Part shown: positions 6,511 through 51,068 of the stretch, in pieces | Layout of the letters: each line of letters starts with the position of its first letter | Numbering within the stretch: position 1 is the first letter of the stretch | From: Treponema sp. | GTDB lineage: Bacteria > Spirochaetota > Spirochaetia > Treponematales > Breznakiellaceae | Length of the DNA stretch: 51,068 nucleotides | Assembly (NCBI GenBank): GCA_031273325.1 | Contig: JAISSB010000071.1 | Coordinates: 1 to 51,068, forward strand | Direction of reading: 5' to 3' | Translations under genes and position numbers: made by a program | The notes under the pieces: generated by a model | The model's input: only the letters and a program-made list of their open reading frames with translations | The model's database searches: none | Told to the model about the DNA's origin: nothing

Positions 6511-6900
6511 GGGACAGCCCCCGTGAGGTCTGTCCCCGTTTGACTTAGAGGTCTGTCCCCGTTTGACTAGAGGTCTGTCTGTTTAGCTTAGAGGTCTGGC
6601 TTAGAGGTCTGTCCCCGTTTGACTTAGAGGTCTGTCTGCTTTAGCTTAGAGGTCTGCTTTAGCTTAGAGGTCTGTCCCCGTTAGCTTGAGGTCTGTCCCC
6701 GTTTAGCTTAGAGGGCTGTCTGTTTAGCTTAGAGGTCTGTCCCCTTTGACTAGAGGTCTGTCCCCGTTTGACTAGAGGTCTGTCCCCTTTGACTAGAGGT
6801 CTGTCCCCGTTTGACTAGAGGTCTGTCCCCTTTGACTAGAGGTCTGTCCCCGTTTGACTAGAGGTCTGTCCCCGTTTTAGCTTGGGGTTTATCCCCGTTT
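6511..6900. repeat. Array of ~17 short units based on AGGTCTGTCCCC(G)TTTGACTAG
   Basis: Direct reading; units of mostly 21-23 bp plus truncated variants. Confidence 0.95.
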
Positions 6901-7090
6901 GAAGTACCTTGATACGAAGCTATCAAGGGGTTTGAGACGATGCTGTGAAGGACCTTGAGACGATGCTATGAAGGACTTTGAGACGAGCCTGTGAAAGACT
7001 TTCACACGAGCCGGTGAAGGACTTTCACACGAGCCGGTGAAGGACTTTGAGCCGATGCTATGAAAGACCTTGAGACGAGCCTATCAGTGG
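6901..7090. repeat. Tandem array of ~8 units of about 23 bp, (GAAGGACTTTGAGACGATGCTAT)n, with inverted-repeat character
   Basis: Direct reading; perfect IR CCTTGATA-cgaagc-TATCAAGG at 6907-6928. Confidence 0.93.
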
Positions 7091-36018: not shown

Positions 36019-36068
36019 AAGATTTGATCTATTTTATTGCCCCGCACCGTGATATTCAAGAGCCATAA

Positions 36069-36315
36069 GGACAGACCTCTGATCCTTCACAGGCTCTTAT
36101 CAAGCTTCTCGATCGGTCGGTATCAAGCTCCTCGATCGGTCGGTATCAAGCTTCTCGATAGACCGGTATCAAGCTCCTCGATAGCTTCGTATCAAATCCC
36201 TTTGATCGTTTATATCAAACTCCTGTGATCGCTCGTATCAAACTCCCTGATAGGGACGGCATAAACCGCTTAGGTAACCGTTAGGAGACCCTGAATCAAA
36301 AGGGGACAGACCCCT
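36069..36315. repeat. 23-bp tandem array (TATCAAGCTYCTCGATCGGTCGG)n bounded by GGACAGACCTC and GGGGACAGACCCC
   Basis: Direct reading; ~7 units at 36099-36260. Confidence 0.93.
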
Positions 36316-36434: not shown

Positions 36435-38594
36435 ATGAAAAGCAATAAAAAAACTTCTTTTGCGGTCATATTCCCGGGGCTTTGTGTGGGGGTGATCGTA
36501 TTCGTGACGGTAAGCTTATCGTGCATTTTTGTGCTTAATTTCCGTTCCTTGTCGTCCCGACATATCATAGAAAATACCCGTGACCGTATTGATGCGATGC
36601 GGAATGCGGTCATATTCTCGTTTGAAAACTGGTCGGCTTTGGTGCGCTATGCGGGTTTTGCGGCTGCCCCCTTTCTTGCCCAAGAACCGATAGCGGCGCA
36701 GCAGGTGGAGGATATCTTTGCCCGAATTCAGTCGGCTCAAGACGAGGTATGGCTGCTCTATGCTACCAGTTATATGAAGTGGACGGAGCCGGGAGGTTAC
36801 GCCATTTTCAGTGATCGGGCTTCCCGCGACCCAAGCTGGGATAATACCTCCCGGAATTGGTATAAAAGCGCCGAGGCAAGGCCTGGAGAAATCACCTATG
36901 CCGAACCCTATATTGCCCAAAACAGCAGACAGCTCACCACCGCCCTTTCCACCACCATCACCGATACCCAAGGTCGGGATTTGGGGGTCATCTCAGGCAA
37001 TGTTTCTATCGCCTTCTTAACTGACCTTCTGCAAACGTATACTGCCTTGCCGAAACAAGAAACCTATTTCCTCAGTAACCAAGGGATATTTATGACGAAT
37101 CCCGATCAAGAAGCGGTTTTGAACAAAGACTTCTTTCGTGAATCCGGTTTGGAATCCTACCGAAATTCAGTGCTTGGCTTAGATGCCGATACCCCAACCT
37201 TTTCAGCGATCAATGCAGAAGCTTTTATCTATGCGGTATTCATTCCCGGTCCTGAATGGCTGCTGGTAACGACAATCCCCCGATCGGTTATCTTTAGAGA
37301 GACGAACCGGATCACTTTTATGTTGATTGCCCTTGTTCTCGTCTTCTTGATAGTGGTGAGTCTGATATCCATCGGCATTACCCGCAAACTGATACACCCT
37401 TTACAGGAATTGGAGCGCTTTTCCGGCACGATTGCCCAAGGGGATTTTTCCGGCATTGTCCCGGACTATCAAACAAAAGAGACCGCTCTGCTTTCCGCAG
37501 GTTTTAATGCGATCAATGCAAATATTTCAGGGCTGGTGAAGAATATCGTAGCTTCGTTTGAAACGATGCATAGCTATGCGGAAGAATTACACACGGTGAT
37601 GGATCAGAACGCCGTCACAACTCAAAAGATTACCGAATCCATGCGAACTCGCATTCAGGACAGTTCCCAAAAAACTGGACAGAATACACAATCCGTGGCG
37701 CACATTGACCACGAAATCGAGTCGTTCCACGATACGGTAACGGAACAAGTGCAGCATATTACCGTTGCCGCTCAATATATACAGCAGGCAGTGGAAAATA
37801 TCAGCGCCGAGAAAGAACTCATTGCAGGATTAAGTAATCAGCTCAACCGTCTTGTACAGAGCGCAAACACGGAGCATAGTCATATTATGCGGTCTGCTGA
37901 GATCGTCACACAGATGGATGTGGATTCTGAAGCCTTGGTAGAGATGAACAAGGTCATTGCCGGAGTAGCGGATCAGACGAATCTGCTTGCTATGAATGCG
38001 GCAATAGAGGCAGCTCATGCGGGGGAATCGGGGAAGGGCTTTACCGTCGTTGCCGGCGAAATCCGCAAACTTTCTGAAACCACCGCGAATCAAGCAAAGA
38101 GTTCCAGTGCAACCCTCCTTGCCATAAAACAGCGTATTGGAGAAATTGCCCGATTATCCGGCGTCATTGAAACTTCTTACGGAGAAACCAACGGGTTTAT
38201 CCAGCTCATCAACCGGCAGGTTGCAGAGATTAAAAAGTCGGCAGAGGATCAAGATGCGGCGTCCGTCCAGATTCTGCACAGTCTTGCCCAAATAGATAAT
38301 ATCACCAAACAGGTGCGGAACTATGCGGTAACGATTAAACAGGAAGCGGGGGTATCTCTGGGGAACTCAAAGCAGCTTTCTGAAAGCATGACGAGTATAG
38401 AACAGCAGATCACCGCTATAAGCCGGCACCTAGAACAGGTTTCTCATTCTTTTCAAAGATCGGTCGAGCAGAATACCGATGCCCTTGAGTCTTTGAATCA
38501 GGCACTTAAGAAGCTTAAAATTCGTAACATCCCCCCTCCCCCCAGCATTATGCAAGCGGGAATTGAAGAAGGCGACCGGCTCAGACATCCATAG
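36435..38594 (+). CDS. Methyl-accepting chemotaxis protein (Cache + HAMP + MCP signalling domain), copy 1
   Basis: Two TMs, periplasmic Cache-like region, GVADQTNLLAMNAAIEAAHAGESGKGFTVVAGEIRKLSE hairpin tip. Confidence 0.93.
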   Translation: MKSNKKTSFAVIFPGLCVGVIVFVTVSLSCIFVLNFRSLSSRHIIENTRDRIDAMRNAVIFSFENWSALVRYAGFAAAPFLAQEPIAAQQVEDIFARIQSAQDEVWLLYATSYMKWTEPGGYAIFSDRASRDPSWDNTSRNWYKSAEARPGEITYAEPYIAQNSRQLTTALSTTITDTQGRDLGVISGNVSIAFLTDLLQTYTALPKQETYFLSNQGIFMTNPDQEAVLNKDFFRESGLESYRNSVLGLDADTPTFSAINAEAFIYAVFIPGPEWLLVTTIPRSVIFRETNRITFMLIALVLVFLIVVSLISIGITRKLIHPLQELERFSGTIAQGDFSGIVPDYQTKETALLSAGFNAINANISGLVKNIVASFETMHSYAEELHTVMDQNAVTTQKITESMRTRIQDSSQKTGQNTQSVAHIDHEIESFHDTVTEQVQHITVAAQYIQQAVENISAEKELIAGLSNQLNRLVQSANTEHSHIMRSAEIVTQMDVDSEALVEMNKVIAGVADQTNLLAMNAAIEAAHAGESGKGFTVVAGEIRKLSETTANQAKSSSATLLAIKQRIGEIARLSGVIETSYGETNGFIQLINRQVAEIKKSAEDQDAASVQILHSLAQIDNITKQVRNYAVTIKQEAGVSLGNSKQLSESMTSIEQQITAISRHLEQVSHSFQRSVEQNTDALESLNQALKKLKIRNIPPPPSIMQAGIEEGDRLRHP

Positions 38595-38604
38595 ATTGCC
38601 GGCC

Positions 38605-38910
38605 TTATGAGGTCTGTCCCCTTTAGAGGTCTGTCCCCAATGAGGTCAATCTCACTTCGGGGTCTGTCCCCTTTAGGTCTGTCCCCCTTAGAGACTTATC
38701 TCCTTCAAGGTCTGTCCCCTTCAGAGGTCTGCACTTCGGGGTCTGTCCCCTTCAGGTCTGTCCCCCTTAGAGACTTATCTCCTTCGGGGTCTGTCCCCTA
38801 GAGGTCTGCCCTTCGGGGTCTGTCCCCTTCAGAAGTCTGTCCCCTTCAGAGGTCTGTCCCCCAGAAGTCTGTCCCCTTCAGAGGTCTGCCCTTCGGGGTC
38901 TGTTCCTTGG
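38605..38910. repeat. Array of GGTCTGTCCCC units between the two chemoreceptors
   Basis: Direct reading; includes a repeated longer block TTTAGGTCTGTCCCCCTTAGAGACTTATCTCCTTC. Confidence 0.93.
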
Positions 38911-39028
38911 CGCACCGCTCAGAAAAATACGTTGCATTCTGTTAATTTCCTAGTTAAGATAGGATATACCTTATACATACTTTAACATTGAGCGAAGGTA
39001 ATTTCATGACTGATAGGAGGCATACGGT

Positions 39029-41167
39029 ATGCAGAGCCATAAAAAAACTTCTTTTGCGGTCATATTCCCGGGACTGTGCGTAGGGATTATCGTATTCGTG
39101 ACGGTAACCCTATCCTGTATCTTTGTACTTAATTTCCGTTCCCTATCCTCTCGGCATATCATAAGGAATACTCGTGACACTATTGATGCGATGCGGAATG
39201 CGGTTATATTCTCGTTTGAAAACTGGTCGTCTCTGGTCCGGTATGCGGGTTTTGCAGCCGCGCCCTTTCTGTCTCAAGAACCTCTCGCGGCTCAGCAGGT
39301 GGAGGATCTTTTTGCCCGGATTCAGTCGGCTCAAGACGAGGTATGGCTGCTCTATGCTACCAGTTATACGAAGTGGACAGAACCGGGAGGCTACGCTATT
39401 TTCAGTGATCGGGCTTCCCGCGCCCCAAGTTGGGATAATACCACGCGGAATTGGTATGTCGGCGCTCAGGCAAGGCCCGGAGAAATCGCCTATGCCGAAC
39501 CTTATATTGCCCAGAATAGCGGACAGCTCACCACCGCCCTTTCTATCACTATCACCGATACCCAAAACCGGGATTTGGGCATTATCGCCGGCAATGTTTC
39601 TATTACCTTCTTAACCGACCTCTTACAGAGCTATATTGCTCTGCCGAATCAAGAGACCTATTTCCTCAGTAACCAAGGAATATTTATGACGAATCCCGAT
39701 CAAGAAGCGGTTTTGAACAAAGATTTCTTTAGTGAATCCGGTCTGGAGTCGTACCGGGATCCGGTGCTTGGCTTAGATGCCGATACCTCCGCCTTTTCAG
39801 CAATGGAGGCGGATGTTTTCATCTATGCAGTATTCATTCCCGGTCCTGAATGGCTCCTGGTAACAACGATTCCCCGGTCGGTTATTTTCCGGGAGACGAA
39901 CCAGATTACCTTTATGTTGATTGCCCTCATCCTCGTCTTCTTGGTAGCGGTGAGTCTCATATCCATCAGTCTTACTCGCAGACTAATACGTCCTTTACAG
40001 GAATTAGAGCGCTTTTCCGGTACGATTGCCCAAGGGGATTTTTCCGGCATCGTCCCGGACTATCAAACCAAAGAGACCGCTCTGCTTTCCGCAGGTTTTA
40101 ATGCGATCAATGCAAATATCTCAGGACTGGTGAAGAATATCGTCAGTTCGTTTGAAACGATGCATGGCTATGCAGAGGAATTACGCACGGTGATGGATCA
40201 GAACGCCGCCGCAACCGGGAAGATTATCGAATCTATGCGGACTATTACTGCGTACATTCAGGACAGTTCCCAAAAAACCGGACAGAATACGAAATCTGTG
40301 GCGCATATTGACCACGAAATCGAGTCGTTCCACGGCACGGTAACGGAACAAGTGCAGCAGATCACCGTTGCTGCTCAATATATACAGAAGGCAGTAGAAA
40401 ATATCAGCACTGAGAAAGAACTCATTGCAGGATTGCATGAACAGTTCAACCGTCTCGTGCAGAGTGCGGACACAGAGCATAGTCATATTTTGAGATCCGC
40501 TAAGATTGTGGAACAGATGGACGCGGATTCTGAAGCATTGGTAGAGATGAACAAGGTTATTGCCGGAGTAGCGGATCAGACGAGCCTGCTTGCTATGAAT
40601 GCGGCAATAGAGGCGGCGCACGCGGGGGAATCGGGAAAGGGCTTTGCTGTCGTTGCCGGTGAAATACGCAAACTTTCTGAAACTACGGCGAATCAAGCGA
40701 AGAGTTCCAGCATAACCCTTCTCGCCATAAAGCAGCGTATTGGAGAGATTGCCCGATTATCCAGTGTCATTGAGACTTCTTATGGAGAAACTAACGGGTT
40801 TATCCAGCTCATCAACCGGCGGGTTGCAGAGATTAAAAAGTCGGCAGAGGATCAGGATGCGGCGTCCGTCCATATCCTGCAAGGTCTTGCTCAGATAGAT
40901 AGCATTACCAAACAGGTGCGGAACTATGCGGTAACGATTAAACAGGAAGCGGGGGTATCGTTGGGGAACTCAAAGCAGCTTTCTGAAAGTATGACGAGTA
41001 TAGAACAGCAGATCACCGTTATAAGCCGGCAGTTAGAACAGGTGTCCTGTTCTTTTCAAATCTCTGTGGAGCAGAATACCGATGCCCTTGAGTCTCTGAA
41101 TCAGGCACTTAAGAAACTCAAAATTCGTAAAATATCCCCCCCCCCCCCCGCATTATGCAAGCAGTGA
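39029..41167 (+). CDS. Methyl-accepting chemotaxis protein, tandem paralogue of the upstream gene (copy 2)
   Basis: Near full-length similarity to 36435-38594; 14-C tract near the 3' end. Confidence 0.93.
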   Translation: MQSHKKTSFAVIFPGLCVGIIVFVTVTLSCIFVLNFRSLSSRHIIRNTRDTIDAMRNAVIFSFENWSSLVRYAGFAAAPFLSQEPLAAQQVEDLFARIQSAQDEVWLLYATSYTKWTEPGGYAIFSDRASRAPSWDNTTRNWYVGAQARPGEIAYAEPYIAQNSGQLTTALSITITDTQNRDLGIIAGNVSITFLTDLLQSYIALPNQETYFLSNQGIFMTNPDQEAVLNKDFFSESGLESYRDPVLGLDADTSAFSAMEADVFIYAVFIPGPEWLLVTTIPRSVIFRETNQITFMLIALILVFLVAVSLISISLTRRLIRPLQELERFSGTIAQGDFSGIVPDYQTKETALLSAGFNAINANISGLVKNIVSSFETMHGYAEELRTVMDQNAAATGKIIESMRTITAYIQDSSQKTGQNTKSVAHIDHEIESFHGTVTEQVQQITVAAQYIQKAVENISTEKELIAGLHEQFNRLVQSADTEHSHILRSAKIVEQMDADSEALVEMNKVIAGVADQTSLLAMNAAIEAAHAGESGKGFAVVAGEIRKLSETTANQAKSSSITLLAIKQRIGEIARLSSVIETSYGETNGFIQLINRRVAEIKKSAEDQDAASVHILQGLAQIDSITKQVRNYAVTIKQEAGVSLGNSKQLSESMTSIEQQITVISRQLEQVSCSFQISVEQNTDALESLNQALKKLKIRKISPPPPALCKQ

Positions 41168-48549: not shown

Positions 48550-48965
48550 TTACTCTTTTACTGCTGCACTGCCCAATGCGGTTACGAGCATTTTTTGTGT
48601 TATCATAAAGAAAATGACAAAAGGAACTGAAACGATGACAGCTCCGGCTGCAAAATTGGTAAATTCATTTTTTCTATCAGTAACAAAATTAAACAGTCCC
48701 AGCGCTAATGTCATATTTTCTGAAGAACGCAGTACCATTTTGGGAAAAATAAAGTCCATCCATGGACCGGTAAAACTTGAAATTGCAAGAAATATTAAAA
48801 TCGGTTTTGCAACCGGGAGAATAATAGTAAAAAAGATTCTTAAATTATTTGCACCGTCGATCCGTGCTGCTTCGTCAAGAGAAGCCGGAATAGTATCCAT
48901 ATAACTTTTTACCAGCCACGTATTATACGGAATATTTCCCGCTAAATACACGAGTACCAGTCGTT
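48550..48965 (-). pseudogene. 3' fragment of a CUT1 sugar ABC permease (MalG-like), N-terminal half missing
   Basis: LVLVYLAGNIPYNTWLVKSYMDTIPASLDEAARIDGANNLRIFFTIILPVAKP (EAA loop); joined directly to the malE-like gene. Confidence 0.8.
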
Positions 48966-50117
48966 CTGCACATCGGCTCCATTCCAAATATTAGAACTTG
49001 CCGCTCCCATTGCGTCCCAAAATTTCGCCATTGGCGGAATCGAAGGCATGGGGAATGCATATTGCAATTGATCCAAAAAGCCTTTTGCATGCGTATTCCC
49101 GGTGACGGCTCCGCTTGTTGCCGGTAATGTGTTTGTGATCTGTGCGCGTAACTGCTGCATTTCCGGAGTGACTAAGAACGCACCGAATTTCTGTGCTTCT
49201 TCAATATTTTTACTGTATGCAGATACAAACATGACTCGGGTACCTGAAAACGAAGCTGCAGGACTATTTTCTCCCGGAAGGCTCGGCAAAGGAGCAACAC
49301 CGAAATTAACGCCTGCATCGGTAAACGGTTTTACATTCCACGGACCGGAGATATACAGTGCAACATTTCCCGCTGCAAAGGACCCGTCAGACGTTGAAGT
49401 TTTAAGGTCCGCAGCCGGTGCATTCAAAATACTCCGCAACCCTTGGAATACCTTCATCCCTTCAACGGCAGCAGGGGTATTAAGATTAGTATTTCTCGTA
49501 TCGGTTCCGTTTGCTCCAAAGAGCCTATTCCCCTTTGCACTGATAAAAATGATCGTATAATAGGCGTTTCCTACATCCATCATAAAAGGATATTTCCCCG
49601 GCTGATTGAAGTTTTGAGCAAAGCTTTTTAAATCGTCCCATGTTTTAGGAACTTGACTTTCAGCAATAAGAGCTTTGTTATAGAAGAGCGCATAGGTCTC
49701 AGCAGAAACGGGGTAGCCGTACTGCTTTCCTTCGTAGGTTGTTGCTGTTTTGCAGGCAGCCAAAAGCTGTGCATTGATAGCTGAAGGGTTTTCAAGCGGC
49801 ACAACTTGACCGGTTGCAACTAATTCGCCGAGCGTGTCGTGCGGAGCAGCAAAGAGATCGGGACCAACGCCTGCCGGTCCGTCCATAGCAATCTGCGTAT
49901 GCGAGTCTCCTAATTCCACATTAACAAACTTGATAGTCACATTCGGGTTCTGTTTTGTATAGGCAGCTCCTGCTTGACGGATAAATTCGTCAGGTCCATT
50001 GAGGGATTCCCACACGGTTAACGTTAGTTTTTTTCCGGTTCCCCCTCCCTGCTGTCCTTCGGCAAAAAGCGGCATCGATAAGCATACAAGAGCCGCTACA
50101 CAGAGCAACTTTTTCAT
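48942..50117 (-). pseudogene. CUT1 sugar ABC substrate-binding protein (MalE-like), C-terminus lost at a deletion junction
   Basis: MKKLLCVAALVCLSMPLFAEGQQGG; LTVWESLNGPDEFIRQ; ends ...SSNIWNGADVQNDWYSCI* inside malG sequence. Confidence 0.8.
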
Positions 50118-50195: not shown

Positions 50196-50229
50196 GGGGA
50201 CAGACCTCTGGATTCATGGGATTGTCCCC
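50196..50229. repeat. Inverted repeat of the dispersed word at the left edge of the 50-kb arrays
   Basis: GGGGACA (50196-50202) and TGTCCCC (50223-50229). Confidence 0.85.
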
Positions 50230-50530
50230 TTGTTTTTGTATACAAGGGTCTTGTTTTTGTATACAAGAGTCTTGGATCTATATACAAGAGTCTTGGATCT
50301 ATATACAAGAGTCTTGGATCCTATATACAAGAGTCTTGGATCTATATACAAGAGTCTTGGATCTATATACAAGAGTCTTGGATCTATATACAAGAGTCTT
50401 GTTTTTGTATACAAGGGTCTTGTTTTTGTATACAAGGGTCTTGTTTTTGTATACAAGGGTCTTGTTTTTGTATACAAGGGTCTTGTTTTTGTATACAAGA
50501 CTCTTATATCTGTATACAAGACTCTTGGTG
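50230..50530. repeat. 21-bp tandem array, ~14 units, TCTTG(TTTTTG/GATCTA)TATACAAGRG
   Basis: Direct reading; CTTG...CAAG ends conserved in nearly every unit. Confidence 0.95.
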
Positions 50531-50560
50531 CTAGACTTAGCTTAAACTCTGCCTTCCAGA

Positions 50561-50852
50561 CTAGATTGCTATTCTTCTGGGCTAGATTGCTATTCTTCTG
50601 GACTGGATTGCTATTCTTCTGGACTGGATTGCTATTCTTCTGGGCTAGATTGCTATTCTTCTGGACTGGATTGCTATTCTTCTGGGCTAGATTGCTATTC
50701 TTCTGGACTGGATTGCTATTCTTCTGGACTGGATTGCTATTCTTCTGGACTAGATTGCTATTCTTCTGGACTAGATTGCTATTCTTCTGGACTAGATTGC
50801 TATTCTTCCAGGCTAGATTGCTATTCTTCTGGACTATATTGCTATTCTTCCA
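50561..50852. repeat. 21-bp tandem array, ~14 units, GATTGCTATTCTTCTGGACTA
   Basis: Direct reading. Confidence 0.95.
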
Positions 50853-50860
50853 AGCGATAA

Positions 50861-50890
50861 GGGGACAGACCTCCTTTGAGGTCTGTCCCC
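50861..50890. repeat. Perfect palindrome of the dispersed word (13-bp stem, 4-nt loop)
   Basis: GGGGACAGACCTC-CTTT-GAGGTCTGTCCCC. Confidence 0.95.
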
Positions 50891-51068
50891 GTCTTCGGAA
50901 ATCTCTTGGTTTAGGGGTCTGTCCCCCCTTGTTAAAACTTCAACTCCCCCTGGGACAAGCCCAGTGGATTGTAAATAGCTACACCGGCTGAACGATGGTT
51001 ATCGCTTCTACTATTGGCTGATTGAACGCAGCCTGTCCCGATTGCTTTGACCGGGCATACTTGTCTCG

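Follow-up and report, generated by a model that had tools for sequence, protein, structure and literature searches.

A word-bounded composite of two minisatellites in a Treponema genome and its ties to a multi-copy REP-type transposase

Layout of the repeat block and other repeats in the window

The window, meaning the whole stretch of 51,068 nucleotides that was analysed, is an entire contig (C93) of a Treponema sp. assembly of 1.82 Mb in 103 contigs (80.9% complete). A repeat block at 50196-50935 ends about 140 bp from the contig end, and 79 bp from its other side lies the start of a minus-strand gene whose sequence reads as an extracellular solute-binding protein (48942-50117). The left boundary of the block (50196-50229, plus strand) is formed by an 11-base word, GGGGACAGACC (50196-50206), and a 7-bp inverted partner, TGTCCCC (50223-50229). 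Array A (50229-50523; TRF score 351) contains 14 units of the form CTTG(TTTTTG or GATCTA)TATACAAGNNT, which are 21 bp long except for one of 22 bp, and a junction (50524-50558) separates it from array B (about 50559-50858; TRF score 500), with 14 units of ATTGCTATTCTTCTGGACTAG of 21 bp. An inverted word pair, GGGGACAGACCTC-CTTT-GAGGTCTGTCCCC (50861-50890), and a minus-strand word, GGTCTGTCCCC (50916-50926), complete the right side. The preliminary description had reported two 21-bp arrays of about 14 units each between copies of the word, and direct reading gave 14 and 14. It had also called 50861-50890 a perfect palindrome; the 13-bp arms are indeed perfect, but a 4-nt spacer separates them, so that the feature is an inverted repeat and not, strictly, a palindrome. 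Its form, a pair of inverted words around a short spacer, is that of a REPIN.

The sub-types of array A follow one another as two TTTTTG, six GATCTA and five TTTTTG units and a final ATATCTG unit, and the 22-bp unit, which carries an extra C (50313-50334), lies among the six GATCTA units; these blocks and the unit with the extra C were all present as previously described. Adjacent units of array A were more similar than in shuffled order (p=0.002), bearing out the block amplification proposed for this array, and those of array B were not (p=0.59). The window contains 33 copies of the word GGGGACAGACC, compared with 0.01 expected from shuffled sequences. An Rfam search of the window returned tRNA only, with no known RNA family at the block, and the exact array-B unit was absent from the genome contigs of other species that were searched. 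A phage origin was rejected, as no similar DNA was found in the phage collection.

A second boxed array, of a 23-bp family, lies at about 36067-36315 (plus strand). The boxed layout suggested for 36069-36315 is present there, although its two words point in the same direction (+,+). At 6525-7084 a tandem array of the word is directly followed by a 23-bp array, and another tandem array of the word (38609-38903, minus strand) lies between two duplicated tandem chemoreceptor genes at 36435 and 39029 (span 36435-41167), which are 86% identical. Different repeat regions precede and follow each of these genes, and the upstream DNA common to the pair stops at the edge of different word/array regions; the comparison shows turnover of these regions. 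The second chemoreceptor gene has a poly-C tract at its 3′ end (41136-41150), a possible slippage site, and the contig start (1-601) holds repeats of 126-144 bp that, read from their sequence, encode WD40-like repeats.

Tandem arrays and their boundaries across the genome

Tandem arrays were surveyed in 1.23 of the 1.82 Mb, taken as stretches, of which they occupy 102.8 kb (about 8%). Good-quality arrays not made of the word have periods of 21 bp (n=82), 23 bp (n=28) and 22 bp (n=2), and arrays made of the word mostly have periods of 21-23. Within this sample the units form dozens of unrelated families, and 123 of 139 arrays are intergenic. A protein-coding repeat was rejected, given the intergenic position of these arrays, the 23-bp class, which has no codon frame, and the 22-bp unit in array A; the first two observations support the non-coding nature claimed for the block earlier. 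Palindromic units were also rejected as a defining feature, as array B is not palindromic and 3 of 55 families reached p<0.05. Arrays with a 7-bp unit, one third of 21 bp, were seen at L063:1-103, L064:1-103, L050:15120-15212 and L097:1-76.

The full order of array A, junction, array B, inverted pair and word is repeated on contig C6, with the same junction, about 15 A units, about 8 B units and related right-hand words. Beyond C6, family A also occurs on C60 and C1, and short pieces of family B occur on C3, C66, C76 and C90. Adjacent units were more alike than in shuffled order at p<0.05 in 44 of 94 arrays, array A among them and array B not, and over the 94 arrays the relative unit distance was 0.81 at lag 1 and up to 1.10 at lag 6. 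Such likeness of adjacent units is as expected from slippage or unequal exchange.

Placing arrays anywhere in the genome gave an enrichment of about 30-fold for words at both edges; as arrays and words share an intergenic location, this control was too lenient and was replaced by an intergenic one. Array edges lay within 30 bp of a word in 40% of cases versus 17% of intergenic points (2.3-fold), and 36 of 110 arrays had a word no more than 100 bp from each edge (33%, versus 12% of random intergenic segments), so that enrichment over the intergenic control was 2.3 to 2.7 fold. Homology breakpoints fell within 3 bp of a word in 40% of cases versus 25% for offset-matched positions. Recurrence of word-bounded arrays, as the preliminary description had envisaged, is seen elsewhere in the genome, but close bounding on both sides is absent from about two thirds of the arrays. 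No word lies within 200 bp of about 40% of intergenic array edges, and many large arrays have none nearby, indicating that an array can exist without the word.

Inversion of the bounding words, noted at the block, did not hold as a general rule: among the 36 arrays bounded on both sides within 100 bp, words pointed in the same direction in 25, faced inward in 9 and faced outward in 2. The relative orientation of array and word is largely constant within families 1, 3, 10 and 12. Inward-facing words bound family 1 in 8 of its 10 doubly bounded arrays; families 10 and 12 have same-direction words with a constant direction relative to the unit, as does family 3 in most copies.

The word and its transposase family

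The genome holds 1,255 copies of the word (670 forward, 585 reverse; reversed control, 1), three genus relatives hold 239, 41 and 7, and other genera of the family mostly 0-20. Comparison of 891 copies showed conservation of GGGGACAGACC plus, mostly, TC, and no conserved GTAG around these copies, which therefore lack the GTAG-type head of canonical REPs. In a Pfam search, Y1_Tnp was found at 33 places in the genome, at 46, 34 and 97 in the same three genus relatives, and at 0-9 in most other genera checked, with a few exceptions at 18-47.

The transposase genes encode proteins of about 170 aa. In the copy tested, Y1_Tnp was the only domain found, and the C-terminal helix-turn-helix-like domain of TnpA_Y1 subclass 2.1 was not detected. 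The HUH motif (NHIHFL) and the Y---NP motif (YINQNP) that mark the RAYT/TnpAREP domain are present, and this copy matches the NCBIfam model REP_Tyr_transpos NF047646 (98.3 bits, cutoff 80) and E. coli TnpAREP 4er8 (E=2e-5). Of 17 copies examined, most have a word that begins near -61 and a TAA stop with GGGGACAG immediately after it; the gene is flanked by a genome-abundant repeat, as RAYT/TnpAREP genes are. Over 272 pairwise copy comparisons, homology mostly sets in somewhere from the upstream word to about -30 and mostly fades no more than about 20 bp from the stop, at or just inside the words that bound the gene. The multi-copy element is a REP-associated tyrosine transposase, with the word as its terminal (REP/TIR-like) repeat. 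The copies differ by 11-23% at the DNA level (mean pairwise identity 82%), indicating that their spread is not very recent. One genus relative (G027; L142-L144) combines 97 Y1_Tnp hits with only 7 copies of GGGGACAGACC, its frequent words being AAGTCAGACCT and AGGTCAGACCT; this suggests that the word changes along with the transposase lineage.

A pattern scan of other bacteria found word pairs in at least many phyla among the matches listed. Among these matches, 10 of 80 fetched loci contained a transposase homologue, always within 334 bp of the word; such proximity has a chance of about 0.39 per locus, and all ten together arose in 0 of 20,000 trials. Four of these ten listed loci have frames of 247-251 aa in the inverted form GGGGACAGACCACG...gene...CGTGGTCTGTCCCC, which agrees with the published TIRYT consensus GGGGWSAS, and the words flanking the proteobacterial homologues among the matches are inverted.

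Comparison with known systems and origin of the block

A literature search for the sequence of the word returned unrelated papers or nothing. TIRtrons, or TIRYT, are TIR-associated tyrosine transposases whose flanking repeats fit GGGGWSAS (PMC3733652); TnpA_Y1 subclass 2.1 has been suggested to correspond to TIRYT, and no REP was found for subclasses 2.1 and 2.3 in the same survey (PMC6006769). The element described here resembles TIRtrons (PMC3733652; probably subclass 2.1, PMC6006769) in that a Y1 gene is bounded by short repeats that fit this consensus (GGGGACAG; a genus relative additionally uses GGGGTCAG) and that the repeats are also dispersed, in dimers and clusters. It differs in that the words bounding the gene are mostly direct rather than inverted, the protein of about 170 aa has no detectable extra domain, the gene is multi-copy, and the repeat has more than 1,200 copies and borders 21/23-bp arrays. 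The protein is too short for the domain described for subclass 2.1, and was therefore not filed there.

Like REP, BIME and REPIN sequences with their RAYTs (PMC2817692, PMC3116915), the words are repeats scattered between genes, are associated with a tyrosine transposase and form inverted pairs such as 50861-50890; unlike them, they lack the GTAG head, and one word alone does not make a hairpin. Published accounts describe RAYT genes as usually present in one copy and showing no sign of mobility (PMC8266576, PMC8049555), a picture that contrasts with the 33 Y1_Tnp hits here and the 97 in a genus relative. The element works like a REP/TIR, but departs from canonical REPs in having no GTAG and from described TIRtrons in its direct ends, short protein and many gene copies. 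Taken alone, the word represents a variation on a known kind; the scale and the combination are unusual. Neisserial intergenic mosaic elements consist of dRS3-bounded repeats and are similar in layout, in that a short word flanks intergenic repeat arrays, although their unit lengths differ from those here. Many non-coding repeat islands in this genome are linked to a REP-type mobile element, and the block is one of them. With 33 to 97 Y1_Tnp hits per genome, and with tandem arrays in about 8% of the sequence sampled here, the genus offers a system for asking by what route REP-associated transposases are mobilised and whether minisatellites spread through their action.

We regard the block, with a probability of about 0.62, as a non-coding composite repeat: a minisatellite expanding by local duplication sits inside a word-bounded segment and is dispersed together with the words. 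The REP-associated tyrosine transposase family of the word would have multiplied within the genome, and word-bounded segments, with or without the transposase gene, would have been copied into many intergenic sites. The interior 21- or 23-bp minisatellite would grow and shrink by duplication of adjacent units or small blocks, the interior arrays changing length on their own. The copying may be done by the transposase, cutting single strands at the word, or by recombination between words, which would equally give the excess of breakpoints at words, itself modest. We infer that the transposase may drive movement of the segments and that the block probably serves no function under selection in the cell. 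Neither an empty site nor an insertion polymorphism was found, and no close orthologue of the neighbouring solute-binding protein gene was found in the genus relatives. A bolder version, which we consider less likely than the composite repeat, would make the REP-type transposase itself mobile in the genus, with ends at GGGGACAGACC, and minisatellite arrays a cargo that it carries between its terminal words and so spreads.

Words and arrays could instead be independent spacer repeats, with word recombination and slippage mimicking the boxes while no transposase moves arrays. Both kinds of repeat are intergenic, the intergenic control already explains part of their proximity, and words show only a moderate excess of homology breakpoints; yet the fixed orientation within array families, the recurrence of the whole composite and the 2.3 to 2.7 fold word enrichment over that control make this origin rather unlikely. 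Misassembly of short reads as the source of the array structure is very improbable. Several contigs terminate inside arrays and contig ends overlap by 119 bp, which makes a k-mer assembly of short reads likely, but the longest exact repeat inside the block is 83 bp and its exact matches to the rest of the 1.23-Mb sample are at most 69 bp long. With every exact repeat in the block shorter than 119 bp, the assembled unit order is credible, and the boxed layout is not an obvious artefact. Retention of the arrays for a function, as in transcript-end stabilisation, protein binding or spacing, would fit the sharp period classes of 21 and 23, the equivalence of 21 bp to two helical turns, and the minus strand folding far better than shuffled sequence (z -7.5), a value that repeats and inverted words alone raise. 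We nevertheless consider it improbable in view of the dozens of unrelated unit sequences, the weak palindromicity of the families, the differing arrays beside the duplicated chemoreceptor genes and the copy number, which varies between copies of the composite.
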